Shown: positions 32,803 through 64,000 of the stretch, in pieces
How positions within the stretch are numbered: the first letter of the stretch is position 1
Layout: each line of letters begins with the position of its first letter
Source of the DNA: Streptomyces roseifaciens
Lineage (GTDB): Bacteria > Actinomycetota > Actinomycetes > Streptomycetales > Streptomycetaceae
Assembly: GCF_001445655.1 (NCBI RefSeq)
Contig: NZ_LNBE01000002.1
Span: forward strand, 620,001-684,000
Direction: 5' to 3'
DNA: 64,000 nt
Translations under genes and position numbers: made by a program
Notes under the pieces: generated by a model
Told to the model about the DNA's origin: nothing
What the model saw: the letters and a program-made list of their open reading frames with translations, nothing else
Database searches by the model: none

Positions 32803-32926
32803 TCTTGATCCCCCGTGGTGAAATGTGACGTGATCATGATCGATCGAGGGGGATTTCTACACCACGGAGCAGGTCAAGATCCAATCGGCGTGACGAGCGT
32901 CAGCCCCTAGGGTCGGCCCGCCGGGG

Positions 32927-50382: not shown

Positions 50383-52761
50383 TCAGCCCCTCAGCGGTCC
50401 TTCACAGGTGAAGTCCGCCGTTCCCGCGGGGCGGTCCGACCAGAGGTCGACCTTGCCGAAGGAACAGTTCATGTCGGCGAAGTTGTTGGTGCCCTTCTTC
50501 GTGCGGTCGAGGATGAAGTAGTCGACCGTCCCGGACATGTCCTTGAAGACCAGGTCGGGGCTGCCCGGGCTGCTCAGGTTGGCGGTGATGCGGCCGGTGC
50601 AGGTGAAGCGGGGCCGCTCCGGGGCCTCGTTGGTGCGGCATTCGGGCGTGATGCCGGTGGTGGCCTTGAAGGAGGCGCGGACCGTGGCGGGGTGGCCGGC
50701 GTCCAGCCCGCCGACGGGCGTGAACGAGGTGTTCGGCACGTACAGGTCCTTGACCTTGGCGATCTGCTGGTCGAGGAAGGTGTCGTACGCGCGCTGCAGG
50801 CCCGTGTCCCGGCCGAGCCGGTCGCGCCAGGCGTCGAAGCCCGCGACGTCGTTCGCGCGGAGGTGGCCGTACATCTCCTTGAGCAGCGAGGGGCGCTCGG
50901 CCCACAGGAACTCGAAGAACGTGCCGGCGTAGGAGTAGAAGCGGAAGCCGTCGCGGTCGTACTCCGCGTGCAGCAGCTCGTACACGCTCATGCGCGGCTT
51001 GGTGCCGCCCGCCGTGTCGTTGATGATGCTCTGGACCAGGGACTTGCGGACCTTGATGCCCTCGCCCCGGGTGGCGCCGTCGAAGAACTCGGCCGTGCCC
51101 TCGTCCATGGCGGTGGTGCGGTCGCCCTGGTACCAGGGGCCCTCGCCGAAGGAGCCGGGGACGGCCCAGCGCCCGTTGAGGTAGTGGGTGTACTCGTGCC
51201 GGAAGAGCTCCTCGAGCGTGAGCGTGGAGTCCTGGGGGACGCGCCGCTCGTACGTGTAGAAGGTGGCGCCGTTCTCGATGTAGATGCCGCCGTTGTTGGT
51301 GCCCATGCCGGTCAGCAGCGGGTGGTAGACCTCGTAGTCGGCGCGGGAGGCGTACAGCACGATGTTGAGCGTGGTGTTGGTGTCGCCCGCCAGCGGCTGC
51401 TCGGTGCCCAGGACGCGGTGGAACTGCGCCTTGACCTGCTTGCTCGCGTAGTAGAGGCGGTCGACGGTGGCGCGGGGCAGGGCCGTGCGGACCTTGATGG
51501 CGCCGTTGTCGTACGTGTAGGTGGACGGGAAGATGCGGCGCTCGATGTCGGCCTTGCACACCCCGTACTGCTTGCAGGCGTCGAACTCGATCAGCCAGGT
51601 GACGACCTTGGCCCAGGGCTCGCTGCCCTCGCCGAAGTTGCCGGTCGTGGTGGACAGCAGCCCGCCGAGGTCGGACGTGATCCGGCCCCTGAGCGCGTCG
51701 ATCTGGCCCATCCGCCCGTACTCCCCGACGCCGTCGCGCACCACCCAGGCGTTGGACGTGCCCTTGAGGTGGGTGTGGCCGGCGAAGGCCTTGAAGGCCG
51801 CGCGGTAGGAGGCGTCGGCCGTGACGGCGGCGTGGAAGGCGGTGTCGTGGTTGCCGGGGTAGACGCCCAGGTAGTTGAGCGAGAGCGCGGCGAGCGCGGC
51901 ACCGGCCCAGGAAGTGTCCTTGTTGGTAGCGGAATGCGCGGCGTCCATGGTGGCCAGGACGCGCTGGACGAGCGGAAGCTGGTGCTGGCGCAGGCCCGGG
52001 GAGCTGGCCGCGTAGAGGGCCTCGCGCAGGGTCTCGGCGTTGGTGCGGGTCGCGTCGAAGGTGCGCGAGGCGGTGCCGAAGGCGGACACCGCGCGGCGAA
52101 TCGCCTCCACGGTCGGCGCGTCGGTGAGGTCGATCTCGCTGCGGGAGAAGTCGTGGTACGCGACGGCGTGGAGGTAGGTGAACATCTCCAGCAGGTGGCT
52201 GTTGTTCTTGCCGTCGTGCGCCGCGGCCAGGCTCTCGATCCGGCGGGAGACCGCCTGGACGTGCGGCCTGGACATGACCGGGACCAGCCGCTGGTCCCAG
52301 GTCCAGATGAGCGTGCGCAGGCAGCCGTCGGCGGTGACGGCCCGGTCGGCGAGGAAGTCGGCGAACTGCTCGGGGGCGAGGCGCGTGATGCCGTCGAGCG
52401 TGCACGGCACGGCGGTGCCGCCGAGGGTGGCGCGGGGCGGTACGGCCGTGGGCTTCGGCTTGGCCGTGAGAGCGCCGGGGACGCGGCCGTTGGTGAGGCC
52501 GCCGGGGGCGGTGGGGGAGGCGGCGGCCGGCTCGGGCGCATTCGCCAGCCGGGTGACCTCGTCGAAGGGGTTGGGCGTGGGGGTGTCCTGCCGCACGCCC
52601 GCCGCCGGCGGCGGGGCGGACGTGGCGGAGGACGGCTTGGCCGCGGGCGAGGGGGAGTCCGCGTGAGCGGGCTGGACGGCGGTGGCGCAGAGCGCCGTGG
52701 CTATGGCGGTGGTGAGCAGGGATGCGCGCAGGGATCTGCGCAGCGATCTGGAGTGGGTCAC
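50383..52761 (-). CDS. Secreted M9-family collagenase
   Basis: The 792-residue metalloprotease has a Sec signal peptide (RSLRASLLTTAIATALCATA, cleavage near QPAHA), a Pro/Ala linker and the M9 activator region. The zinc site HEYTH is at residues 522-526, with the downstream ligand Glu554 in MDEGTAEFF 28 residues later, as in clostridial collagenases. The last 100 residues form a Cys-containing beta domain. It degrades collagen or gelatin outside the cell. GTG 52761 has AGGAG upstream. A minus-strand promoter with an operator shared with the peptide importer lies 170-200 bp upstream, and a strong terminator follows. Confidence 0.9.
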   Translation of the reverse strand: MTHSRSLRRSLRASLLTTAIATALCATAVQPAHADSPSPAAKPSSATSAPPPAAGVRQDTPTPNPFDEVTRLANAPEPAAASPTAPGGLTNGRVPGALTAKPKPTAVPPRATLGGTAVPCTLDGITRLAPEQFADFLADRAVTADGCLRTLIWTWDQRLVPVMSRPHVQAVSRRIESLAAAHDGKNNSHLLEMFTYLHAVAYHDFSRSEIDLTDAPTVEAIRRAVSAFGTASRTFDATRTNAETLREALYAASSPGLRQHQLPLVQRVLATMDAAHSATNKDTSWAGAALAALSLNYLGVYPGNHDTAFHAAVTADASYRAAFKAFAGHTHLKGTSNAWVVRDGVGEYGRMGQIDALRGRITSDLGGLLSTTTGNFGEGSEPWAKVVTWLIEFDACKQYGVCKADIERRIFPSTYTYDNGAIKVRTALPRATVDRLYYASKQVKAQFHRVLGTEQPLAGDTNTTLNIVLYASRADYEVYHPLLTGMGTNNGGIYIENGATFYTYERRVPQDSTLTLEELFRHEYTHYLNGRWAVPGSFGEGPWYQGDRTTAMDEGTAEFFDGATRGEGIKVRKSLVQSIINDTAGGTKPRMSVYELLHAEYDRDGFRFYSYAGTFFEFLWAERPSLLKEMYGHLRANDVAGFDAWRDRLGRDTGLQRAYDTFLDQQIAKVKDLYVPNTSFTPVGGLDAGHPATVRASFKATTGITPECRTNEAPERPRFTCTGRITANLSSPGSPDLVFKDMSGTVDYFILDRTKKGTNNFADMNCSFGKVDLWSDRPAGTADFTCEGPLRG

Positions 52762-52930
52762 CGATGACTCCTGTGTGGGAGGTGTGGGTTGCCGCGCGCA
52801 CACGAGGTGATGGGCGTGCACGCGGCAAAGCGGAAACAGCGGAAACAGCGAAGACCGTGGCGCAAGGGGTGATTCAACTGCCGTCTGACAGGCGGCACGT
52901 GGGGGACTGCTGCTGCGCCATGTCATGCGT

Positions 52931-52959
52931 AACGTAGTAATGTGAAATGGTACTGACAA
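52931..52959 (-). promoter_or_regulatory. Collagenase promoter with regulon operator (site A)
   Basis: On the minus strand TTGTCA (52959-52954) and TACGTT (52936-52931) are exactly 17 bp apart. The spacer plus -35 contains the motif which reads on the plus strand AATGTGAAAT, three variable bases, ACTGACAA (52939-52959). The same arrangement occurs at 58731-58759, so a repressor bound here would block RNA polymerase. Confidence 0.7.
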
Positions 52960-52970
52960 CCCCTCAGGCG

Positions 52971-53953
52971 CTACGGGTTGTGCGCGAGGGCGAAGTGGCA
53001 GGCCACCTCACGCGCCTCGCCCGGCGCGGCGACCCGCAGCAGCGGCGCCTCGGTCCGGCAGATCTCCTGCGCCATGGGGCAGCGCGGGTGGAACGTGCAG
53101 CCGGGCGGGGGAGCCGCCGGGCTCGGGGGGTCGCCGAGCAGGGTGATCCGCTCGCGCGTCCGCTCGGCGGCCGGGTCCGGCAGCGGCACCGCCGAGAGCA
53201 GGGCCTGCGTGTACGGGTGGGCCGGGGCCGCGTACACGCGCTCCTTGTCGCCGACTTCGACGATCCGCCCCAGATACATCACGGCCACCCGGTCGCACAC
53301 CCGCTTCACCACCGACAGGTCGTGGGCGATGAAGAGGTAGGCGAGCCCGAGTTCACGCTGGAGCCGCTCCATCAGATTGACGATCTGGGCCTGCACGGAG
53401 ACGTCCAGGGCCGAGACCGGTTCGTCGGCGACGATCAGGCGCGGCCCCGTGGCGAGCGCGCGGGCTATGCCGATGCGCTGCGCCTGCCCGCCGGAGAACT
53501 CGTGCGGATAGCGGTCGATGTGCTCGGGGATGAGCCCGACCAGCTCCATCAGCTCCGCCGCCCGCTTGCGCGCCCCGGCCGCCGGCACGCCCTGGATCAG
53601 CAACGGGTCGGCGATGATGCGGGCCACCGTCTGGCGCGGGTTGAGGGAGGAGTGCGGGTCCTGGAAGACCATCTGCAGGTCCTTGCGCAGCGGCTTGAGC
53701 TCGCGCCTGCCGAGCCGGCTGATGTCGCGGCCGTCGTAGGTGATCGACCCCGTCGTCGGCTCCAGGAGCCGTACGATCATGCGGCCGGTGGTCGACTTGC
53801 CGCAGCCGGACTCGCCCACCAGGCCCAGGGTCTCGCCCGCCGCCAGGTCGAAGGAGACGCCGTCGACGGCCCGGACGGGTGCCGCGCGGCCCCGCTTGCC
53901 CGGGAAGGTCATGGTCACGTTCCGTACGGACAGCAAAGGTGCGGTTCCGGCGG

Positions 53954-53957
<4 letters not shown>
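52971..53957 (-). CDS. Oligopeptide ABC transporter ATPase (DppF/OppF type)
   Basis: The 328-residue ATPase has Walker A GESGCGKS (48-55), signature [15 protein letters not shown], Walker B LIVADEP and the C-terminal oligopeptide/dipeptide extension with the Cys-containing [20 protein letters not shown] that may hold an iron-sulfur cluster in this family. ATG 53957 overlaps the DppD-like gene stop (ATGA). It is the last gene of the importer operon and energises peptide uptake. Confidence 0.92.
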
Positions 53958-54987
<1,030 letters not shown>

Positions 54988-54988
<1 letters not shown>

Positions 54989-55974
54989 CAGTACCTCACT
55001 CGCGGGTCGACGACGGCGTAGAGCAGGTCGACGGCCAGGTTGGCGACGACGATGAAGGCGGCCGCCATCAGCGTGACGCCGAGGATGACCGGCTGGTCGC
55101 CGGTGGACAGCGCGCCGTAGAAGAGCCGCCCGATCCCCGGGAGCCCGAAGATCGACTCGGTGATGACGGCGCCCGCGAGCAGCCCGCCCAGGTCCATGCC
55201 GAAGAGGGTGAGGATCGGCGTCATGCCGGCCCGCAGCCCGTGTTTGACGACGACGGTGCGGCGGGGCAGGCCCTTGGCGCGGGCGGTGCGGATGTACGGC
55301 TCCGCCATCGTCTCGATCATCGAACTGCGGCTCTGGCGGGCGTACATGGCGGCGTAGAGCACGGCCAGCGCCAGCCAGGGCAGGAGCAGGTTGGACGCCC
55401 AGCGCAGGGGGTCGTCGCCGAGGGGCACGTACTGCGGGTACGGCAGCAGCCCGGCCGTCCGGATCAGGCCGTAGATCAGCATCATCGAGGTGAAGTAGAC
55501 GGGCAGCGAGGCCGCGGCGACGGCGCCGACCATCAGGGCGCGGTCGGTGAGGGTGTCCTTGCGCAGGGCCGCGGTGACGCCGGCGCTCAGGCCGAGCGCC
55601 AGCCACAGCACGGCCGCGCCCAGCGCCAGGGAGGCGGAGACCGGCAGGCGGTCCGTCAGCAGGTCCCAGACCGCCTCGGAGTTCTCGTAGGAGTAGCCGA
55701 GGCAGGGGAAGGCGCAGTGCAGGGCGTAGCGGCCGCTGCCCATGGTGCGGCCGGTGAAGATGCCGGTGACGAAGTCCGCGAACTGCCGCCACAGCGGCCG
55801 GTCCAGGCCCATGTGGGCGCGGATGGCCTCCAGGCGGTCGGTGCTGCAGGACTTGCCGCAGGCGGCGGCCGCGGGGTCGGAGGGCAGCACGTAGAAGACG
55901 GTGAAGGTGACGGCGGCGATGGCGACGAGCACGCCGGCGACGGCGAGCAGGCGGCGGCCGAGGTAGAGGGTCAT
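54988..55974 (-). CDS. Oligopeptide ABC transporter permease (DppB type)
   Basis: The 328-residue permease has six hydrophobic helices, starting with RRLLAVAGVLVAIAAVTFTV. The EAA loop is EPYIRTARAKGLPRRTVVVK and the family block GGLLAGAVITESIFGLPGIG is present. An extracytoplasmic loop with four Cys (CGKSC, HCAFPCLGYSYEN) is notable. ATG 55974 overlaps the stop of the other permease (ATGA). Confidence 0.92.
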
Positions 55975-56918
55975 GTGCGGCCGCTCCTCGGGTCGAGGAC
56001 GTCGCGCAGCGCGTCGCCGAGCAGGGTGAAGGCGAGGACGGTCAGGAACAGGCAGGTGCTCGGGATGACGAAGTACATGGGGTCCGTGTCGTAGAAGCCG
56101 ACGCTCTCGGCGATCATCTGGCCCCAGGAGGGGGTGGGCGGGCGGACGCCGACGCCCAGGTAGCTCAGGGCCGCCTCGGTGGCGATCATGCCGGGGACGA
56201 TGAGGGTGGTGTAGGCGATGACGGGCCCGGCGACGCCGGGGAGGATGTCGCGGGTGAGGATGCGCCAGGGCCCGGAGCCGCCGACGCGGGCGGCGTCGAC
56301 GTACTCGCGGTGCCGGAGCGAGAGGGTCTGGCCGCGTACGACGCGGGCGACGCCGGGCCAGCCGAAGAGGCCGATGACGGCGGTCATCAGCAGGATGCGG
56401 TTGACGTCCTTGGCCACCGACATCATCGCGATCATGAAGATGAGGGAGGGGAAGGACATCGTGAGGTCCATCAGCCGGGAGAGCACGGCGTCGGTGCGGC
56501 CGCCGAAGTAGCCCGCCGTGATGCCGGCCGCCGTCCCGGCGAGCACGACGATCGCGGTGGCGGTGAGGGCGATCAGCAGCGACACCTGGGCGCCGTGCAC
56601 GACCCGGGCGAACAGGTCGCGGCCGGTGACGGGTTCGACGCCGAGCCAGTGGTCGGCGGAGATGCCGCCCAGCGGTCCGAGGGGCCGGCCGCCGAGGTAG
56701 GGGTCGACGGCGGTCTTGTCGAACTCCTCGGGCGACCAGCCGGCGAGCGAGCTCAGCAGCGGGGCGCCCGCCGCCATCAGCAGGAAGAGTGCGACGACGA
56801 CGAGGGAGACCTTGACGGCGGTGCGGCGGCGCAGTTCGGCACGGGCGAGCTGCCAGGGCCCGCTGCCCGCGGGGACGGCCGCCGGGGCGGGTGGGGCGGT
56901 GTTCGCGGTGGTGGTCAT
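55971..56918 (-). CDS. Oligopeptide ABC transporter permease (DppC type)
   Basis: The 315-residue permease has an N-terminal helix (VSLVVVALFLLMAAGAPLLS), a substrate-facing loop and the EAA motif REYVDAARVGGSGPWRILTR with a C-terminal DPRSGRT. It follows the binding protein gene after 13 bp. Gene order in this operon is A-C-B-D-F, whereas A-B-C-D-F is more common. Confidence 0.92.
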   Translation of the reverse strand: MTTTANTAPPAPAAVPAGSGPWQLARAELRRRTAVKVSLVVVALFLLMAAGAPLLSSLAGWSPEEFDKTAVDPYLGGRPLGPLGGISADHWLGVEPVTGRDLFARVVHGAQVSLLIALTATAIVVLAGTAAGITAGYFGGRTDAVLSRLMDLTMSFPSLIFMIAMMSVAKDVNRILLMTAVIGLFGWPGVARVVRGQTLSLRHREYVDAARVGGSGPWRILTRDILPGVAGPVIAYTTLIVPGMIATEAALSYLGVGVRPPTPSWGQMIAESVGFYDTDPMYFVIPSTCLFLTVLAFTLLGDALRDVLDPRSGRT

Positions 56919-56931
56919 GGCGTGACGGCCC

Positions 56932-58677
56932 TCAGTCCCGGCTCTTGGCGGGGTCCTTGAGGCCGACCGTGGCGTAGTCGATCTGTCCGCCGAAGGAGGT
57001 GTGCCCGTACGCGCCCGCGATGTTGGTGCCCAGGACCAGCGGCCACCGCCGGACGAGCACCGGGACGGCCGGAGCCTGGGCGAGGATCCGCCCGTCGAGC
57101 TGCTGCCAGGCCCCGGCGGCCTCCTTGGCGTCGGTCATGGCGGCGATCGCGTCCATCCGCTTCATCGTCGCGTCGTCGCGGAAGAGGGAGTGGTTGCCGG
57201 AGTTGCCCTTCTCCTTGATGAAGCGGCCGTCGAAGACGAAGGGCAGGAAGGTGGAGCCGGAGGGGTAGTCGGGGCACCAGCCGGTGTAGACCATGTCGGT
57301 GCGGTTCCCGGTGTCGCCGATGGTGGCGTAGAAAGCGGACGGGTCCACGGTCTCGATGGTGACCTTGATGCCGGCCCGGGCCAGGGCCTGCTGGATGGCC
57401 TCGGCCCGGCCCTTGTCGCCGACCGACGCGGTGATCTTCGTCGAGAAGCCGTCGGGCTTGCCGGCCTCCTTCAGCAGCTGCTCGGCCTTCTCCGTGTCGC
57501 CCGTCGCGGGGATCTTGAGGGTGTCGGGCTGCTTGCCGCCGAAGAGGGTCGCCGGCATGTAGGCGGTCGACAGGTCGTTGAAGGCGGGGCCGCCGGAGGA
57601 GGTGAGGACGGCGTCCCGGTCGAGGGCGTACTGCACGGCCTGCCGGACCTTGGCGTTGTCGAAGGGCGCTCTGCCGGTGTGCATCTGGACCATGTCGGTG
57701 CAGTTGGTGGACTCGGCGAGCAGCCGCTCCCGCACCCCGGCGTCGGGCAGGACCTTCGCGGCGCTCTCCGGCCGCAGGGCGCCCCAGGAGACGGCGGAGG
57801 CGTCCGCGCCCTGGCTCGCTATCAGCCGGTCGTCGATCTGGTTGGCCTTCAGGCCCATCATGACGACCAGCTTGTCCGGGTACGCCTTGCGGACTTCGTC
57901 CGTCGCGGGGTCCCAGTGCTCGTTGCGGACGAGGACGAGCTTCTTGCCGCGCGCGTAGGAGTCGACTTTGTACGGGCCGGAGGAGAACGGCCGGTTGTCG
58001 TACTGCGGGCCCTTGTCCTGCGCCTGCGGTACGGGCGCGAAGGTGGGCATGACCGTGGCGTTGGGGAACTCGGCGAACGGCTTGCGCAGTTCGAAGACGA
58101 TGGTGCGGTCGTCCGGCGTCCTGATGGAGTCGAGGTGCTTGCCCTGGGCGGGGCCCCGGTAGCCCTCGGCGCCCACGAGGTAGCGGGCGGCGTAGTCGGC
58201 GCCGCCGGGCAGGTCGGGGGAGAAGGACCGCTCGACGTTGTACTTGACGTCCTGCGCGGTGACGGGTGAGCCGTCCTCGTACTTCACGCCCGGCTTGAGG
58301 TGGAACGTCCACGTCCTGGCGTCGGCGGACGGCGAGCCCAGGTCGGTGGCGAGGTCGGGGACCAGTTCGCCGCCCTGCGCTCCGGGCGAGGCCTTGTACG
58401 TGACCAGGGTGCGGTAGAGCAGCCGGGTCCCGAAGTCCATGTCGTTCATGACCCAGTTGCGGGCCGGGTCGAGGTGGGTGAAGTCCTGGTTGGACAGCAC
58501 CGTCAGCGTGCCGCCCTTCTGCGGGGTGCCGCCGATCGCCTTGCCCTCGTGGGCGGCGGGGTTCCTTCCGCCGTCCTTGCCTCCGGCCGACCGCTTCCCG
58601 CCGGAACACCCGGCCGTCCCCAGGGCGAGGGAGGCCGCCAGCATCGCGGCCATGGCAGTACACGTGCGCTTGTTCAT
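56932..58677 (-). CDS. Peptide-binding lipoprotein of ABC importer (SBP family 5, DppA type)
   Basis: The 581-residue protein has a lipoprotein signal (MAAMLAASLALGTAGC, lipid-bearing Cys24). It shows the family 5 pattern: HLDPARNWVMNDMDFGTRLLY, DARTWTFHLKPGVKYEDGSP with VTAQDVKYNVERSF, and WCPDYPSGSTFLPFVFDGRF. It captures peptides outside the membrane for the adjacent permeases. Its promoter has the same operator and spacing as that of the collagenase, which suggests import of collagen fragments rich in proline and hydroxyproline; the ligand itself is inference. Confidence 0.9.
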   Translation of the reverse strand: MNKRTCTAMAAMLAASLALGTAGCSGGKRSAGGKDGGRNPAAHEGKAIGGTPQKGGTLTVLSNQDFTHLDPARNWVMNDMDFGTRLLYRTLVTYKASPGAQGGELVPDLATDLGSPSADARTWTFHLKPGVKYEDGSPVTAQDVKYNVERSFSPDLPGGADYAARYLVGAEGYRGPAQGKHLDSIRTPDDRTIVFELRKPFAEFPNATVMPTFAPVPQAQDKGPQYDNRPFSSGPYKVDSYARGKKLVLVRNEHWDPATDEVRKAYPDKLVVMMGLKANQIDDRLIASQGADASAVSWGALRPESAAKVLPDAGVRERLLAESTNCTDMVQMHTGRAPFDNAKVRQAVQYALDRDAVLTSSGGPAFNDLSTAYMPATLFGGKQPDTLKIPATGDTEKAEQLLKEAGKPDGFSTKITASVGDKGRAEAIQQALARAGIKVTIETVDPSAFYATIGDTGNRTDMVYTGWCPDYPSGSTFLPFVFDGRFIKEKGNSGNHSLFRDDATMKRMDAIAAMTDAKEAAGAWQQLDGRILAQAPAVPVLVRRWPLVLGTNIAGAYGHTSFGGQIDYATVGLKDPAKSRD

Positions 58678-58730
58678 CAGTGGTCACTCCGTGAACAGTC
58701 GAACAGCCGGACGGCTGAAATGTGACCCGT

Positions 58731-58759
58731 AACATAGTAATGTGAAATTGCACTGACAA
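58731..58759 (-). promoter_or_regulatory. Importer promoter with regulon operator (site B)
   Basis: On the minus strand TTGTCA (58759-58754), a 17-bp spacer and TATGTT (58736-58731) drive the peptide importer. The plus-strand motif AATGTGAAAT, TGC, ACTGACAA spans 58739-58759. The site also lies 46 nt before the divergent aminopeptidase gene and could control both directions. Confidence 0.72.
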
Positions 58760-58804
58760 GGCGTCAGTCGCTCCGTTACCCACCTGTGTCCGAGGAGGAG
58801 TCCC

Positions 58805-60175
58805 GTGCAGGAACCCGCAGTTGCCGCGATCCGTACGGTCAGTCACGACCTGCCGGTTTCGGCCGAGTTCGAGGCGTTCATGGCGAACGGCTGGGCGGCG
58901 ACACCGCTGCCCGCCGACATCCGGCTGCCCGTGGCGGACCTCGCCGCGGCGCGCCGCGCGAAGCTGTCGGCACGCTTTCCCGGCGAGCGGCTGATCGTGC
59001 CCGCGGGCGAGTTCAAGGTCCGCTCCAACGACTGCGATTACCGCTTCCGCCCGCACAGCGCCTACGCCTGGCTGACCGGACTGACCGGCGAGGACCAGGC
59101 CGGTCACGTGCTGGTCCTGGAGCCCGACGGCCCGCACTGGCACGAGGCGGTGCTGTACGTGCGGCCGCGGTCGCCGCGCGCCGGTGCGGAGTTCTACCGC
59201 GACCGGCGCTACGGCGAGTTCTGGGTCGGCCGCCGCCCCGACCTCGCCGAGGCCGAGCGCATGACCGGCATCCGCTGCGCGCACCGGGAGGACTACGACC
59301 GGCTGCCGCCGGGCCGCGACGCGTCCGGCGACGACGAACTCGCCGCCGCCCTGAGCGAACTGCGCCTGGTCAAGGACGCGTGGGAGGTCGAGCAGCTGCA
59401 GCTGGCCGTGGACCACACCGCCGCCGGCTTCGAGGACGTCGTGCGGGCGCTGCCCCGCGCCCTCGCCCACCCGCGCGGCGAGCGGTGGATCGAGGGCGTC
59501 TTCGGCCTGCGCGCCCGCGCCGAGGGCAACGGCCCCGGCTACGAGACCATCGCGGCCTCCGGCGCGCACGCGTGCGTCCTGCACTGGATACGCAACGACG
59601 GCCGGCTCGACCCCCGCGAACTCCTCCTGCTGGACGCGGGTGTCGAGACGGACACCCTCTACACCTCCGACATCACCCGCACCCTGCCGCTGTCCGGATG
59701 CTTCTCGCCCGTGCAGCGGCAGGTCTACGAACTCGTCCTCGCCGCCCAGGACGCGGGCATGGCCGCCCTCAAACCGGGGGCGAGCTTCCGCGACTTCCAC
59801 CGGGCCGGCATGCGGGTCATCGCCGAGGGGCTCGCCGAGTGGGGCGTGCTCAAGAGCGCCGAGGGCGATTTCCACCGCCGGTACACCCTGTGCAGCAGCG
59901 GCCACATGCTCGGCCTGGACGTCCACGACTGCGCCCAGGCGCGGGCGGACGCCTACCTCGACGGCGTCCTGGAGGAGGGGCAGGTCCTCACCGTCGAGCC
60001 GGGGCTCTACCTCCAGCCCGACGACGAGACGCTGCCGGCCGAACTGCGCGGCATCGGCGTGCGGATCGAGGACGACCTGGTCATCACGGCCGACGGGGCC
60101 CGGCTGATGTCGCACGCGCTGCCCCGCACGCCCGACGCGGTCGAGGCGTGGATGGGCGAGCTCCTCGAGGGATAG
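58805..60175 (+). CDS. pepP: Xaa-Pro aminopeptidase (aminopeptidase P, M24B)
   Basis: The 456-residue enzyme has an AMP_N domain (about 45-180, FKVRSNDCDYRFRPHSAYAW) and an M24 pita-bread domain. The five metal ligands are visible: Asp277, Asp289 (TSDITR), His367 (GHMLGLDVHD), Glu398 (TVEPGLY) and Glu422 (RIEDD). It removes an N-terminal residue before proline, which is needed to break collagen-type peptides (Gly-Pro-Hyp). No signal peptide is present, so it acts on imported peptides. GTG 58805 follows GAGGAG. It is divergent from the importer with operator site B between. Confidence 0.92.
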   Translation: MQEPAVAAIRTVSHDLPVSAEFEAFMANGWAATPLPADIRLPVADLAAARRAKLSARFPGERLIVPAGEFKVRSNDCDYRFRPHSAYAWLTGLTGEDQAGHVLVLEPDGPHWHEAVLYVRPRSPRAGAEFYRDRRYGEFWVGRRPDLAEAERMTGIRCAHREDYDRLPPGRDASGDDELAAALSELRLVKDAWEVEQLQLAVDHTAAGFEDVVRALPRALAHPRGERWIEGVFGLRARAEGNGPGYETIAASGAHACVLHWIRNDGRLDPRELLLLDAGVETDTLYTSDITRTLPLSGCFSPVQRQVYELVLAAQDAGMAALKPGASFRDFHRAGMRVIAEGLAEWGVLKSAEGDFHRRYTLCSSGHMLGLDVHDCAQARADAYLDGVLEEGQVLTVEPGLYLQPDDETLPAELRGIGVRIEDDLVITADGARLMSHALPRTPDAVEAWMGELLEG

Positions 60176-60230
60176 GCGAACTCCCCCGGAGGATCGGGGA
60201 ATCGTCAACCACAAGGTACGGACCGGCTCT

Positions 60231-60267
60231 TGGCAGCACGCAGTGCAATGTGAAATATTACTGACGT
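60231..60267 (+). promoter_or_regulatory. Oxidase operon promoter with regulon operator (site C)
   Basis: TTGGCA (60231-60236) and AATATT (60254-60259) are 17 bp apart. The regulon motif AATGTGAAAT, ATT, ACTGAC spans 60247-60265 and overlaps the -10 and start region. The outer arms CAGT and ACTG (60241-60263) make it an imperfect dyad. Transcription would begin at about the GTG at 60266, giving a leaderless mRNA. Confidence 0.6.
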
Positions 60268-61417
60268 GCTCATGAGCAACTCCTCCTCGGACGTCATCGT
60301 CGTCGGAGCGGGTGTGGTCGGCGCCGCCTGCGCCTACTACGCCGCCCGCAGCGGCCTCTCCGTCACCGTGGTCGACCGCGGCCCCGTCGCCGGCGGGACC
60401 ACGGGCGCCGGAGAGGGAAACCTCCTGGTCTCCGACAAGGAACCCGGACCGGAGCTCGAACTGGCCCTGCTCTCCACGCGGTTGTGGCACGAGCTGGCCC
60501 AGGAGCTCCCGGCCCGGATCGAGTACGAGGCCAAGGGCGGCCTCGTCGTCGCCTCCGACGCCGCCGCCATGGCCGCGCTGCGGAAGTTCGCCGCCGCGCA
60601 GGCCGGGGCGGGCGTCACGGCCGAGGAGATCCCGGCCGACCGGCTGCACGACGTGGAGCCGCACCTGGCCCCCGGCCTCGGAGGCGGCTTCCGCTATCCG
60701 CAGGACGCCCAGGTCCAGCCCGCCCTCGCCGCCGCCCACCTGCTGCGCGCCTCCGGCGCCCGGGTCCGTACCGGAGAGGAGGTCACCGCCGTCCTCACCG
60801 GTGCGGACGGAGAGGTGCGGGGCGTGCGTACGGCGGCCGGCGAGCTGCACGCCCCCTTCGTCGTCAACGCCGCCGGCACCTGGGGTGGCGAGGTGGCCCG
60901 GCTCGCCGGCGGGCACCTGCCCGTACTGCCCCGCCGGGGCTTCGTGCTCGTCACCGAACCGCTGCCGCGCGTGGTGCGGCACAAGGTCTACGCGGCCGAC
61001 TACGTCGCCGACGTGGCCAGCGGCTCGGCGGAGCTGCAGACCTCCGCGGTGGTCGAGGGCACCCCGGCGGGCCCGGTCCTGATCGGCGCCAGCCGCGAAC
61101 GGGTCGGCTTCGACCGCACCCTGTCGGTGGAGGTGCTCCGGCGCCTCGCCGCCCAGGCCACGGCCCTGTTCCCGGTGCTGGCCGGAGTACGGGCCCTGCG
61201 CACGTACGCCGGATTCCGCCCGTACCTGCCCGACCACCTGCCCGCCATCGGCCCCGACCCCCGCGTCCCCGGGCTGCTGCACGCCTGCGGCCACGAAGGC
61301 GCGGGGATCGGGCTCGCCCCCGCCACCGGCCTGGCCGTCGCCCGGCAGCTGACGGGCGGCGAACCCCCGCTCGACCTCGGCCCGTTCCGCCCCGGCCGCT
61401 TCGCCCCGGCCGCCTGA
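60266..61417 (+). CDS. FAD-dependent D-amino acid/D-hydroxyproline dehydrogenase, beta subunit type
   Basis: The 383-residue flavoprotein has the FAD loop VGAGVVGAACAYYAARSGLS, GGTTGAGEGNLLVSDKEPGP, and the C-terminal ACGHEGAGIGLAPATGLAVA with YAGFRPYLPDHLPAIG. This is the DAO/opine oxidase beta-subunit type. With the next two genes it matches the three-subunit D-hydroxyproline (or opine) dehydrogenase layout, oxidising cis-4-hydroxy-D-proline to 1-pyrroline-4-hydroxy-2-carboxylate. GTG 60266 or ATG 60272 may be the start; there is no ribosome site and site C overlaps it. The three stops at 61408-61454 arise from a tandem repeat. Confidence 0.83.
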   Translation: MLMSNSSSDVIVVGAGVVGAACAYYAARSGLSVTVVDRGPVAGGTTGAGEGNLLVSDKEPGPELELALLSTRLWHELAQELPARIEYEAKGGLVVASDAAAMAALRKFAAAQAGAGVTAEEIPADRLHDVEPHLAPGLGGGFRYPQDAQVQPALAAAHLLRASGARVRTGEEVTAVLTGADGEVRGVRTAAGELHAPFVVNAAGTWGGEVARLAGGHLPVLPRRGFVLVTEPLPRVVRHKVYAADYVADVASGSAELQTSAVVEGTPAGPVLIGASRERVGFDRTLSVEVLRRLAAQATALFPVLAGVRALRTYAGFRPYLPDHLPAIGPDPRVPGLLHACGHEGAGIGLAPATGLAVARQLTGGEPPLDLGPFRPGRFAPAA

Positions 61418-61454
61418 ACCCCCGGCCGCCTGAACCCCGGGCCGCCTGACCCCC
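61408..61454 (+). repeat. Three tandem copies of a 16-bp unit carrying the stop codon
   Basis: The unit GGCCGCCTGAACCCC occurs about three times in a row, the first copy containing the TGA of the oxidase gene. It looks like recent slippage duplication of the gene end. Confidence 0.65.
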
Positions 61455-61504
61455 CTTCCCGCGTCCGCCCGTTGCCCCGCACCGTCCCGAGAGGAGGCCC
61501 GCAC

Positions 61505-61819
61505 GTGGCCCGTACCCCCGCCGACCTGGTCAGGGCGGAGCCCGACCCGCCCTTCGAGATCACCTTCGACGGCCGTACGGTCACCGCCCTGCCCGGCCAG
61601 TCCGTGGCCGCCGCCCTGTGGGCGGCGGGCATCCTCGCCTGGCGCACCACCCGGTACGGCGGCCGCCCGCGCGGGGCCTTCTGCGGCATCGGGCAGTGCT
61701 ACGACTGCCTCGCCACCGTCAACGGCGAGCCCAACCGCCGGGCCTGCCTGGTGCCCGCCCGGCCCGGGGACGCGATCACCACCCAGGAAGGACACGGCCG
61801 TGCCGGGCTCGCCGTCTGA
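61505..61819 (+). CDS. Small (2Fe-2S)-binding protein, gamma subunit type
   Basis: The 104-residue protein has a ferredoxin-like fold start (FEITFDGRTVTALPGQSVAA) and four cysteines Cys60, Cys65, Cys68 and Cys81 (FCGIGQCYDCLATV then NRRACLV), enough for one [2Fe-2S] cluster. It corresponds to the gamma subunit of heteromeric D-hydroxyproline/opine dehydrogenases and passes electrons from the flavin subunits. GTG 61505 follows GAGAGGAGG. It overlaps the next gene by 20 bp. Confidence 0.85.
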   Translation: MARTPADLVRAEPDPPFEITFDGRTVTALPGQSVAAALWAAGILAWRTTRYGGRPRGAFCGIGQCYDCLATVNGEPNRRACLVPARPGDAITTQEGHGRAGLAV

Positions 61820-63404
61820 ACCGTACGACCTCGCCGTGATCGGCGCGGGACCCGCCGGCCTCGCCGGGGCCGCCACCGCTGCCCGGCTCGGCCTGTCCGT
61901 CGCCGTCCTGGACGCCGCCGCGCAGGTAGGCGGCCAGTACTTCCGTCACCCCGCCCCGGGCCTGGGCGCCGCGCACCCGCAGGCCCTCCACCACGACTGG
62001 GCCGCCTTCACCGAGCTGCGCGGGCGCTTCGAGGTGAGCGGCGCCGCGCACTTGGCCGGGCACCACGTGTGGGCCGTCACGCGGCGGGACGAGGAAGTGT
62101 GGAGCGTGCACGCGCTCGTGGGCGAGGAGGGCGGCGCGAACGCGGGACGCGCGGGCGGTGCGGCCTCCGGCAGCGGCGGGGCGGGCGCAGCCGTCTCCGG
62201 CACCGGGAGCGACGACGTTTCGGGTACCCGCAGCAGCGGCACCGGAAGAAGCTGCGAAGGCCGCACCGAAGCGAGCTTCAGCGGCGAACGCGAGCGCCCC
62301 GTGCGCCTGCACGCCCGCGCCGTGCTCTTCGCCACCGGCGCGGGCGAGCGGCAGCTGCCCTTCCCCGGGTGGACCCTGCCCGGCGTCGTCGGGGCCGGTG
62401 GCGCCCAGGCCATGCTGAAGTCCGGGCTCGTCCTGCCCGGGCAGCGGATCGTCGTGGCGGGCAGCGGTCCGCTCCTGCTCGCCGTCGCCTCCTCGCTCGC
62501 CGCCGCCGGCGCCCGCGTCCCCGCGGTGGCCGAGGCGTCCGGCTACCTCGGCTACGCCCGCAGGCCGGGCGCCCTGGCGGCCAACCCCCACAAGCTCCTC
62601 GAAGCCGCCGTCCACGGCACGGCACTCGTGCGCCACCGCATCCCGCTGCACACCCGCAGCGCGGTCACCGAGGTGCACGGCACCGACCGCGTCGAGGCCG
62701 TCACCGTCTCCCGGCTCGACCGCGACTGGCGGCCCGTGCCCGGCACGGGCCGCCGCATCGCCTGCGACGCCCTGGCCGTGGGCCACGGGCTCGCACCGCA
62801 GACCGAGCTCGCCACCGGCCTCGGCTGCGAGACCCGGCGCACGCCCGACGGCACGCACGCCCTCGTCCTGGACGGCCTCCAGGAGACCTCGGTGCCCGGC
62901 CTGTGGGCCGCCGGCGAGGCCGGCGGGACCGGCGGCTGGCAACTCGCCCGCGTCGAGGGCGAGCTGGCGGGCATCGCGGTGGCCGCCCGGCTGCGGGCGC
63001 TCCCCGCGCTCACCCGGAGCCGGCGCGTACGGGACCTGGCCCGGCGCCGCGACCGCATGCGCGCCTTCGCCGACGCCATGGCCGCCGCCCACGCACCCGG
63101 CCCCGGCTGGACCGCGTGGCTCGACGACGACACCGACGTCTGCCGCTGCGAGGAGGTGACCGCCGGAAGCATCCGCGAGGCCGTCACCGAATTCGGCGCC
63201 CGGGACGCCCGGACCGTCAAGCTCCTCACCCGGGCCGGCATGGGCTGGTGCCAGGGCCGGATGTGCGGCGCGGCCGTGGCCTGCCTCGCGGCGTCCGGTA
63301 CGGCGCAGGGGACCGTACCGCCGTCCGCCGAGCGCAGGCCGCTCGCCGTGCCCGTACCGCTGGGCTCCCTCGCCGCCGGACCCGAGGAACCCGGAGACGC
63401 CTGA
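61800..63404 (+). CDS. Pyridine nucleotide-disulfide-type FAD oxidoreductase with BFD iron-sulfur domain, alpha subunit type
   Basis: The 534-residue flavoprotein starts VIGAGPAGLAGAATAARLGL (FAD loop) and has the second loop VAGSGPLLLAVASSLAAAG. A C-terminal BFD-like domain has four cysteines at 448, 450, 484 and 489 (VCRCEEV, WCQGRMCG). This matches the alpha subunit of heteromeric opine/D-hydroxyproline dehydrogenases. A Gly/Ser/Thr-rich insertion of about 55 residues lies at 108-163, inside the usually compact FAD domain. The GTG at 61800 overlaps the gamma subunit gene by 20 bp, so the three subunits are co-translated. Confidence 0.85.
   Translation: MPGSPSEPYDLAVIGAGPAGLAGAATAARLGLSVAVLDAAAQVGGQYFRHPAPGLGAAHPQALHHDWAAFTELRGRFEVSGAAHLAGHHVWAVTRRDEEVWSVHALVGEEGGANAGRAGGAASGSGGAGAAVSGTGSDDVSGTRSSGTGRSCEGRTEASFSGERERPVRLHARAVLFATGAGERQLPFPGWTLPGVVGAGGAQAMLKSGLVLPGQRIVVAGSGPLLLAVASSLAAAGARVPAVAEASGYLGYARRPGALAANPHKLLEAAVHGTALVRHRIPLHTRSAVTEVHGTDRVEAVTVSRLDRDWRPVPGTGRRIACDALAVGHGLAPQTELATGLGCETRRTPDGTHALVLDGLQETSVPGLWAAGEAGGTGGWQLARVEGELAGIAVAARLRALPALTRSRRVRDLARRRDRMRAFADAMAAAHAPGPGWTAWLDDDTDVCRCEEVTAGSIREAVTEFGARDARTVKLLTRAGMGWCQGRMCGAAVACLAASGTAQGTVPPSAERRPLAVPVPLGSLAAGPEEPGDA
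62121..62288 (+). repeat. Low-complexity Gly/Ser-coding insertion in the alpha subunit gene
   Basis: About 168 bp encode a run rich in Gly, Ser, Ala and Thr that breaks the FAD domain after VHALVGEEGG and before RPVRLHARAVLF. It is in frame and is not a recognisable domain. Confidence 0.6.
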
Positions 63405-63438
63405 ACCACCGCCCCACCCGCGCTCGTACACGTCCCAC

Positions 63439-63458
63439 GCCATAGAACGCCATAGAAG
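63439..63458 (+). repeat. Tandem 10-bp repeat before the DapA-like gene
   Basis: CGCCATAGAA occurs twice directly, immediately before the GAAGGG ribosome site of the gene at 63469. Confidence 0.55.
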
Positions 63459-63468
63459 GGTTACCGGT

Positions 63469-64000
63469 ATGACCGCCTCCTCCTGGACCCCCGACCGCCC
63501 CTGGCGCGGCATCATGGTCGCCACCACCCTCCCGCTGCGCCCGGACCTCTCCGTCGACTACGACGCCTACGCCGAACACGTCCGCCGGCTCGTCGAGAAC
63601 GGGTGCGACGGCGTCGTCCCCAACGGCTCCCTCGGCGAATACCAGACCCTCACCCCGCAGGAGCGCGCCCGCGTCGTGCGCACCGCCGTCGAGGCGGCCG
63701 GGGACGGGGCGCGGGTGATGCCCGGCGTCGCCGCGTACGGCAGCGCCGAGGCGCGCCACTGGGCCGAGCAGGCCGCCGAGGCGGGCTGCGGCTCCGTCCT
63801 GCTGCTGCCGCCGAACGCCTACCGCGCCGGCGAACAGGCCGTCCGCGCCCACTACACGGAGGTCGCCGCGGCCGGGATACCGGTCGTCGCCTACAACAAC
63901 CCCATCGACACGAAGGTCGACCTGACCCCGGCCCTGCTGGCCCGGCTGCACGCCGACGGCAGCATCGTGGCCGTCAAGGAGTTCACCGGCGACGTCCGGC
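63469..64000 (+). CDS. DapA-family lyase/deaminase, probable 1-pyrroline-4-hydroxy-2-carboxylate deaminase (partial)
   Basis: The first 177 codons are present; the gene runs off the right edge. The protein starts WRGIMVATTLPLRPDLSVDY and has the family block CDGVVPNGSLGEYQTLTPQE, the YNNPIDTKVDL segment and the Schiff-base lysine Lys170 in VAVKEFTGD. The DapA fold covers aldolases and deaminases. The upstream hydroxyproline dehydrogenase subunits make the Pyr4H2C deaminase the best guess, giving 2,5-dioxovalerate (2-oxoglutarate semialdehyde) and ammonia. GAAGGG precedes ATG 63469. A 2-oxoglutarate semialdehyde dehydrogenase and an epimerase would be expected further right. Confidence 0.78.
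   Translation, partial: MTASSWTPDRPWRGIMVATTLPLRPDLSVDYDAYAEHVRRLVENGCDGVVPNGSLGEYQTLTPQERARVVRTAVEAAGDGARVMPGVAAYGSAEARHWAEQAAEAGCGSVLLLPPNAYRAGEQAVRAHYTEVAAAGIPVVAYNNPIDTKVDLTPALLARLHADGSIVAVKEFTGDVR

Follow-up and report, generated by a model that had tools for sequence, protein, structure and literature searches.

A putative collagen and hydroxyproline utilization island with a HypR-like regulator in Streptomyces roseifaciens

We analysed a stretch of 64,000 nucleotides from Streptomyces roseifaciens (NCBI RefSeq assembly GCF_001445655.1, contig NZ_LNBE01000002.1, positions 620,001 to 684,000), here called the window; positions are counted from its first nucleotide and continue along the contig beyond its end. 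The last 13.6 kb of the window very probably hold the core of a collagen and hydroxyproline (Hyp) utilization regulon, gathered in one island under a HypR-like repressor. Gene content, protein families, catalytic motifs, a conserved motif shared between promoters, and recurrent linkage in other Streptomyces were computed here; the presumed function of the repressor is carried over from HypR of Streptomyces coelicolor.

In the pathway that we propose, a secreted M9 collagenase would cut collagen or gelatin to peptides, a five-gene ATP-binding cassette (ABC) importer would bring in those rich in proline and Hyp, and a dedicated aminopeptidase P would take off the residues ahead of proline. An epimerase would convert trans-4-L-Hyp to cis-4-D-Hyp, which a three-subunit dehydrogenase would turn into pyrroline-4-hydroxy-2-carboxylate; a DHDPS-family enzyme would deaminate this compound to 2-oxoglutarate semialdehyde, and an aldehyde dehydrogenase would complete the route to 2-oxoglutarate. 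A HypR-like repressor of the FCD-GntR family would silence four promoter regions by way of ATGTGAMATNNYACTGA-type operators as long as no Hyp-derived signal is present.

Gene content of the island

Gene starts were set with a simple gene finder based on codon usage, and families were assigned by Pfam and NCBIfam profile searches. An earlier note on this DNA had named an M9 collagenase, a peptide importer, an aminopeptidase P, a three-subunit dehydrogenase and a DapA-family gene, all of which are present in the stretch by Pfam domains and motifs. It had also pointed to the sequence beyond the window, where we find an epimerase-family gene, a 2-oxoglutarate semialdehyde dehydrogenase-like gene and a GntR-type regulator; because the two enzyme genes lie in the island, the objection that they might be missing falls away. 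The features are as follows.

50383..52761, minus strand: secreted M9 collagenase (Pfam domains; HEYTH zinc motif; signal-peptide-like N-terminus)
52940..52956, plus strand: operator-like site ATGTGAAATGGTACTGA, upstream of the collagenase (30.8 bits, rank 3 in 95 kb; core exact in the genome search)
52971..53957, minus strand: OppF/DppF-type ATPase (ABC_tran and oligo_HPY)
53954..54988, minus strand: OppD/DppD-type ATPase (ABC_tran and oligo_HPY; start from the codon-usage gene finder)
54988..55974, minus strand: OppB/DppB-type permease (BPD_transp_1)
55971..56918, minus strand: OppC/DppC-type permease (BPD_transp_1 and OppC_N)
56932..58677, minus strand: peptide-type solute-binding lipoprotein (SBP_bac_5, E 1.7e-74; lipobox-like N-terminus)
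58740..58756, plus strand: operator-like site ATGTGAAATTGCACTGA, in the gap that separates aminopeptidase P from the divergent importer operon (32.6 bits, rank 2 in 95 kb; core exact in the genome search)
58805..60175, plus strand: aminopeptidase P (Xaa-Pro aminopeptidase) type peptidase (AMP_N and Peptidase_M24)
60248..60264, plus strand: operator-like site ATGTGAAATATTACTGA, at the head of the Hyp operon (34.3 bits, rank 1 in 95 kb)
60266..61417, plus strand: D-hydroxyproline dehydrogenase type, beta subunit (DAO, E 9e-70)
61505..61819, plus strand: D-hydroxyproline dehydrogenase type, gamma subunit (2Fe-2S; Fer2_4, E 1e-27; C-x4-C-x2-C-x12-C)
61800..63404, plus strand: D-hydroxyproline dehydrogenase type, alpha subunit (Pyr_redox_2 and Fer2_BFD)
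63469..64377, plus strand: DHDPS-family (DapA-family) gene, cut by the window end at 64000 (DHDPS, E 4.5e-49; Lys in VAVKE)
64438-65442, beyond the window: Pro_racemase-family (epimerase-family) gene (Pro_racemase, E 6.9e-129)
65439-66809, beyond the window: aldehyde dehydrogenase (Aldedh, E 1.7e-124)
66815-66831, beyond the window: operator-like site before the regulator (25.1 bits)
66940-67620, beyond the window: FCD-GntR regulator of 226 amino acids (FCD 94 bits, GntR 57 bits)
67670-68854, beyond the window: M6 metalloprotease (M6 domain above its cut-off)

The next gene on the contig encodes a RibD_C protein, and the island ends with the regulator at 67620, or at 68854 if the M6 protease is counted.

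The locus thus brings together all four enzyme families of trans-4-hydroxy-L-proline catabolism, namely the epimerase, the three-subunit D-Hyp dehydrogenase, the deaminase and the alpha-ketoglutaric (2-oxoglutarate) semialdehyde (KGSA) dehydrogenase, and the catalytic motifs of the island enzymes read intact. A pair of cysteines marks epimerases and racemases, and in the epimerase-family protein both are in place (Cys91 in MCGHG and Cys255 in SPCGTGT). Its NCBIfam scores are 352 bits for 4-hydroxyproline epimerase (cut-off 376) and 349 bits for proline racemase (cut-off 556). For the aldehyde dehydrogenase the best model is KGSA dehydrogenase, at 358 bits against a cut-off of 770, and its substrate is presumably 2-oxoglutarate semialdehyde. 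Sequence searches of the PDB gave no match for the alpha subunit at a cut-off of 1e-15, and none for the aldehyde dehydrogenase at 1e-80.

The collagenase has Peptidase_M9 (161 bits, E 3.8e-47) and M9_N (39 bits, E 7.5e-10) domains, the active-site HEYTH at residue 522 and a Glu-containing DEGTAEF stretch downstream. Its nearest solved chains are those of ColT, ColH and ColG, and it scores 352 bits with the NCBIfam ColA model, below the cut-off of 1550. Given the signal-peptide-like N-terminus, translation most likely starts near 52761 and not at 52959. The Opp/Dpp importer set is whole, with an SBP_bac_5 protein, two permeases and two ATPases with oligo_HPY tails. Its solute-binding protein (SBP) reaches no NCBIfam equivalog cut-off and its substrate model is unspecific; uptake of peptides rich in proline and Hyp is suggested by its setting, as is a role of the aminopeptidase P in breaking down collagen peptides.

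The genome of S. roseifaciens holds one M9 gene, one epimerase match, two AMP_N genes and two homologues of the dehydrogenase beta subunit. The second beta homologue, with 59% identity, lies elsewhere, at G000:C4:3246686-3247855.

An operator-like motif at four island promoters

The motif ATGTGAMATNNYACTGA is common to the collagenase, importer/aminopeptidase P, dehydrogenase and regulator promoters. When a pooled matrix was run over the window and a further 31 kb (95 kb in all), the top four sites were those at the four island promoters, at 34.3, 32.6, 30.8 and 25.1 bits, and the highest-scoring site outside the island reached 12.8 bits. The site of the Hyp operon is overlapped by an opposite-strand match at 60240-60256 (18.8 bits). 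In the same 95 kb, no site was found before the deaminase gene of the window (63404-63469) or before its M6 gene. From their position and conservation and from the regulator's family, we infer that the island regulator binds these operator-like sites.

A 15-base core, TGTGAMATNNYACTG, has three exact copies in the 8.64-Mb genome, every one inside the island. With up to two mismatches allowed there are 72 genome matches, compared with 50 for a reversed control, so that weak matches to the core mean little. The search for the operator core at 0 or 1 mismatch lists no site at the second beta homologue.

As a side observation, the 12.8-bit site lies at 32815-32831, about 50 bases upstream of a minus-strand gene of 171 amino acids, and has an overlapping opposite-strand partner of 8.8 bits.

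The motif in related loci and at unlinked collagenase genes

For comparison we assembled 80 named loci, those with the closest matches to the dehydrogenase beta subunit, a set biased by that closeness; flanks of 10 kb are complete in 66 of them. A motif search in the 80 beta-subunit promoters yielded ATGTGAAATATTACTGACGT. Because the published 11-base core of the HypR site is too weak as a scanner by itself, the scoring matrix was learned from these dehydrogenase promoters only, as the first 17 positions of ATGTGAAATATTACTGACGT in softened form. Its threshold, 9.6 bits, is the top score of 55 control promoters and was fixed after the controls had been seen; the top score of 1240 random stretches was 9.4.

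Sites above this threshold occur in all 80 training promoters and in 29/29 collagenase promoters (5 of the 34 collagenase loci, cut by the locus edge, were left out). They also occur in 28/28 SBP promoters, including 14/14 where the site is separate from that of the dehydrogenase, and in 27 of 28 aminopeptidase P promoters. None was found at the starts of the epimerase (0/65), aldehyde dehydrogenase (0/38), alpha (0/78), gamma (0/78) or oppB/C/D/F (0/102) genes. The scored promoters are not independent events, given that these loci are relatives of one another and that a divergent collagenase/aminopeptidase P pair has a single site in common. The deaminase start has a site above threshold in 44 of 71 relatives, just before the gene and inside the Hyp operon, which makes a downstream intermediate a possible signal; that such an intermediate of the Hyp pathway is what the regulator senses is speculation on our part.

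Seven relatives carry the motif before the start of an M6 gene (L013, L021, L022, L025, L028, L051 and L063), so that in some species the regulon may include a second secreted protease.

The motif also follows the collagenase gene beyond the Hyp operon. An upstream test covered 60 of the 92 M9 genes in a sample of 121 Streptomyces genomes, in which M9 scores form two groups, 332-433 and 140-177 bits, with the M9 of the window at 165. Tested were 13 unlinked genes of the island type and, from the other group, 9 linked and 38 unlinked genes; this leaves aside the 25 island-type genes that are linked, and 7 of the 54 genes in the other group. A pooled-matrix match above 10 bits is present upstream in 57/60, where the background reaches 10 bits at 1 in 145,936 positions. 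Of these 57 top-scoring matches, 52 fall 1.1-1.7 kb ahead of the M9 catalytic domain, where the gene should begin; four lie more than 2 kb upstream, that of L120 is only 98 bases before the domain, and two passes are weak, at 11-12 bits. The three misses comprise L113 and L116, which are cut by a contig end, and L141, a plain miss. In addition, the exact 17-mer ATGTGAMATTGYACTGA occurs at 43 sites in 32 of the 121 genomes, compared with 0 for its reversed control. The 30 sites that were fetched all adjoin homologues of island genes; going by coordinates alone, each of the remaining 13 has an M9, beta-subunit or epimerase match no more than 5 kb away.

Recurrent linkage in Streptomyces

Among the 66 loci with full flanks, a collagenase is present in 29, an SBP in 27, OppB in 24, aminopeptidase P in 24, the aldehyde dehydrogenase in 36, the regulator in 57 and an M6 gene in 13. 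Where the collagenase stands upstream, it may be divergent, immediately adjacent with the same orientation, or more distant; at other loci it stands downstream. The comparison of gene order that the earlier note had called for thus bears out a recurrent association; the whole island in the same order is found at one of the 80 loci, L010 (S. hiroshimensis). A quickly built tree of the beta-subunit gene, in which 72 of the 81 rows have a scored state, shows at least 15 changes in the arrangement of the collagenase and at least 12 in the presence of aminopeptidase P.

Because the relatives had been chosen by closeness, linkage was also counted in the 121 genomes, taken as an even sample of the genus. 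M9 genes occur in 73 of them, and three matches under the Pfam cut-off were excluded from the linkage count. A beta-subunit homologue lies within 20 kb of 25 of the 38 island-type M9 genes, where about 0.5% would be expected by chance from genome size, and of 9 of the 54 in the other group; 33 of the 73 genomes have such a linkage. Some linkage may be hidden by draft assemblies, because no beta homologue is on the same contig for 7/38 island-type and 18/54 other-group genes. In a sample of 296 genomes from the phylum, M9 genes occur in four, all Streptomyces, and were not met in other genera.

Taken together, these patterns make it probable that collagen breakdown in Streptomyces is wired to hydroxyproline sensing, with a HypR-type operator at nearly every M9 gene of both groups, at the importer, at aminopeptidase P and at some M6 genes. 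A dispersed regulon would have condensed repeatedly into islands of varied gene order, and the one in the window would be a complete example.

Relation to HypR and to other collagen and hydroxyproline systems

The closest known system is that of S. coelicolor (PMC6608401, 2019). There the FCD-GntR protein HypR binds CTNTGC(A/C)ATGTCAC and acts as repressor of three targets: the Hyp operon SCO6289-6293, SCO5912, which encodes an M9 collagenase, and SCO5281. L-Hyp induces these targets, and a mutant deleted for the epimerase gene no longer grows on L-Hyp; in vitro, binding of HypR is unchanged by L-Hyp, D-Hyp or L-Pro (PMC6608401). The HypR regulon (SCO6289-SCO6294, SCO5912 and SCO5281) shares with the island the DAO, Fer2_4, alpha-subunit, DHDPS and Pro_racemase families, as well as an FCD-GntR regulator, an M9 collagenase and a related operator, and SCO6289 has the same family and order as the island beta subunit (PMC6608401). 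In contrast to the island, which has both, the S. coelicolor collagenase gene lies elsewhere by locus number, and no KGSA dehydrogenase is described near the operon in that text. Position and family suggest that the island regulator is the counterpart of HypR (SCO6294). Read on the other strand, the site before the island regulator is TACAATGTCAC, identical at 11/11 positions to the reported site of the S. coelicolor hypR promoter (PMC6608401), and the importer/aminopeptidase P site has one mismatch (10/11) to the published 11-base core TGCAATGTCAC.

A 21-kb collagen-utilization cluster described for the metagenome-assembled genome Colwellia BB5 and two Colwellia species (PMC7883544, 2021) is gammaproteobacterial, whereas the island is actinobacterial. 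Like the island, it links an M9 collagenase to a 4-Hyp epimerase, a D-Hyp dehydrogenase, a KGSA dehydrogenase, peptidases and transport; it differs in having major facilitator superfamily (MFS) and TonB-dependent transport in place of an ABC importer, peptidyl-prolyl isomerases and a PutR-type regulator, and the text available describes no HypR operator (PMC7883544). Among the island genes from 50383 to 69484, Pfam searches detect no secreted peptidyl-prolyl isomerase and no MFS or TonB-dependent transporter. The Lhp pathway of Pseudomonas aeruginosa (LhpA, LhpB/E/F and LhpC) has the same epimerase, three-subunit D-Hyp dehydrogenase and deaminase families, at just 33-41% identity between the P. 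aeruginosa and S. coelicolor Hyp proteins, and is presented in PMC6608401 without a collagenase or peptide importer.

The earlier note had inferred that these genes form one co-regulated catabolic system, of a kind it had not seen described as a unit. The first part is supported by gene content and by the motif shared between four promoter regions; the claim of novelty does not stand, because HypR control of the collagenase and the Hyp operon (PMC6608401) and the Colwellia cluster (PMC7883544) had already been published. Pathway, regulator and collagenase link had thus all been described before. What is new is an actinobacterial island, the importer and aminopeptidase P among the likely targets, the repeated linkage, and the presence of the motif at almost every Streptomyces M9 gene tested. 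In the open-licence literature, judged by titles and the beginnings of abstracts, no other published Streptomyces island of collagenase, importer and Hyp genes was found.

The results carry a regulatory link shown in a single species closer to a rule for the genus, complete with a defined operator, and predict which importer and which peptidase feed collagen peptides into the Hyp pathway. They also offer the same regulon for comparison in scattered and in linked form, as well as a compact candidate cassette for the conversion of collagen or gelatin waste.

Alternative explanations

Several observations weigh against a single HypR-controlled island. The epimerase, the dehydrogenase alpha subunit, the aldehyde dehydrogenase and the aminopeptidase P all score below their NCBIfam cut-offs, and the enzyme names are therefore best guesses that do not fix the substrates. 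Compared with TGCAATGTCAC, the collagenase site has three mismatches (8/11) and the dehydrogenase site four (7/11), although an overlapping other-strand match at the latter has two. The published core alone does no better than chance, with 13 window matches at up to two mismatches where 16.4 are expected, and 7 against 5.25 in a second scan. In the relatives, just 19/65 regulator promoters and 7/17 M6 starts are above threshold, and neither an importer nor an aminopeptidase is among the S. coelicolor HypR targets reported in the available part of PMC6608401.

One alternative is that the HypR unit consists of the collagenase and the Hyp operon alone, the importer and aminopeptidase P being general peptide-scavenging genes that are there by chance. 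Three close relatives (L011, L012 and L014) indeed lack the importer between collagenase and aminopeptidase P, its presence changes at least 16 times on the beta-subunit tree, and its substrate model, as noted, is unspecific. We nevertheless consider this explanation unlikely, given the motif frequencies at the SBP and aminopeptidase P promoters, and given at least two genomes (L174 = G064 and L193 = G055) in which the motif is shared by aminopeptidase P and an M9 gene well away from the Hyp operon.

It is also conceivable that the operon is there for free hydroxyproline or D-proline, from plants or elsewhere, and that collagen is incidental. Hyp is a component of plant cell walls as well (PMC6608401), no collagenase lies within about 10 kb in 37 of the 72 scored relatives, 48 of the 121 genus genomes have no M9 gene, and the epimerase and proline racemase models score nearly equally. 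The linkage of 25 of the 38 island-type M9 genes and the retention of the motif at unlinked M9 genes argue otherwise, and this possibility appears to us very unlikely. A chance neighbourhood of unrelated catabolic genes is extremely improbable: the presence of the collagenase changes at least 13 times on the beta-subunit tree, so that the island is not a fixed block, but linkage in the 121-genome sample is far above expectation and the island promoters share a motif.

Additional racemase-family genes

A second proline-racemase paralogue, 35-39% identical, is present in the same neighbourhood at 15 loci (L026, L029, L031, L033, L035, L037, L044, L046, L052, L060, L066, L068, L071, L072 and L089), and directly follows the collagenase in L026 and L035. 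One of the 15 starts has a motif site above threshold. For the two members tested, the best NCBIfam model is trans-3-hydroxy-L-proline dehydratase, at 244 and 233 bits against a cut-off of 540. The second racemase may be such a dehydratase, but both scores are far below the cut-off and all 15 proteins have the Cys/Cys residues. Among 8000 candidates scored in a protein search, the 120 listed are mostly Streptomyces members of the proline racemase family. Finally, one database protein of 562 amino acids, P0029, has DHDPS and proline racemase domains in one chain, and could be either a deaminase-epimerase fusion or an artefact of its 3.8-kb source contig.

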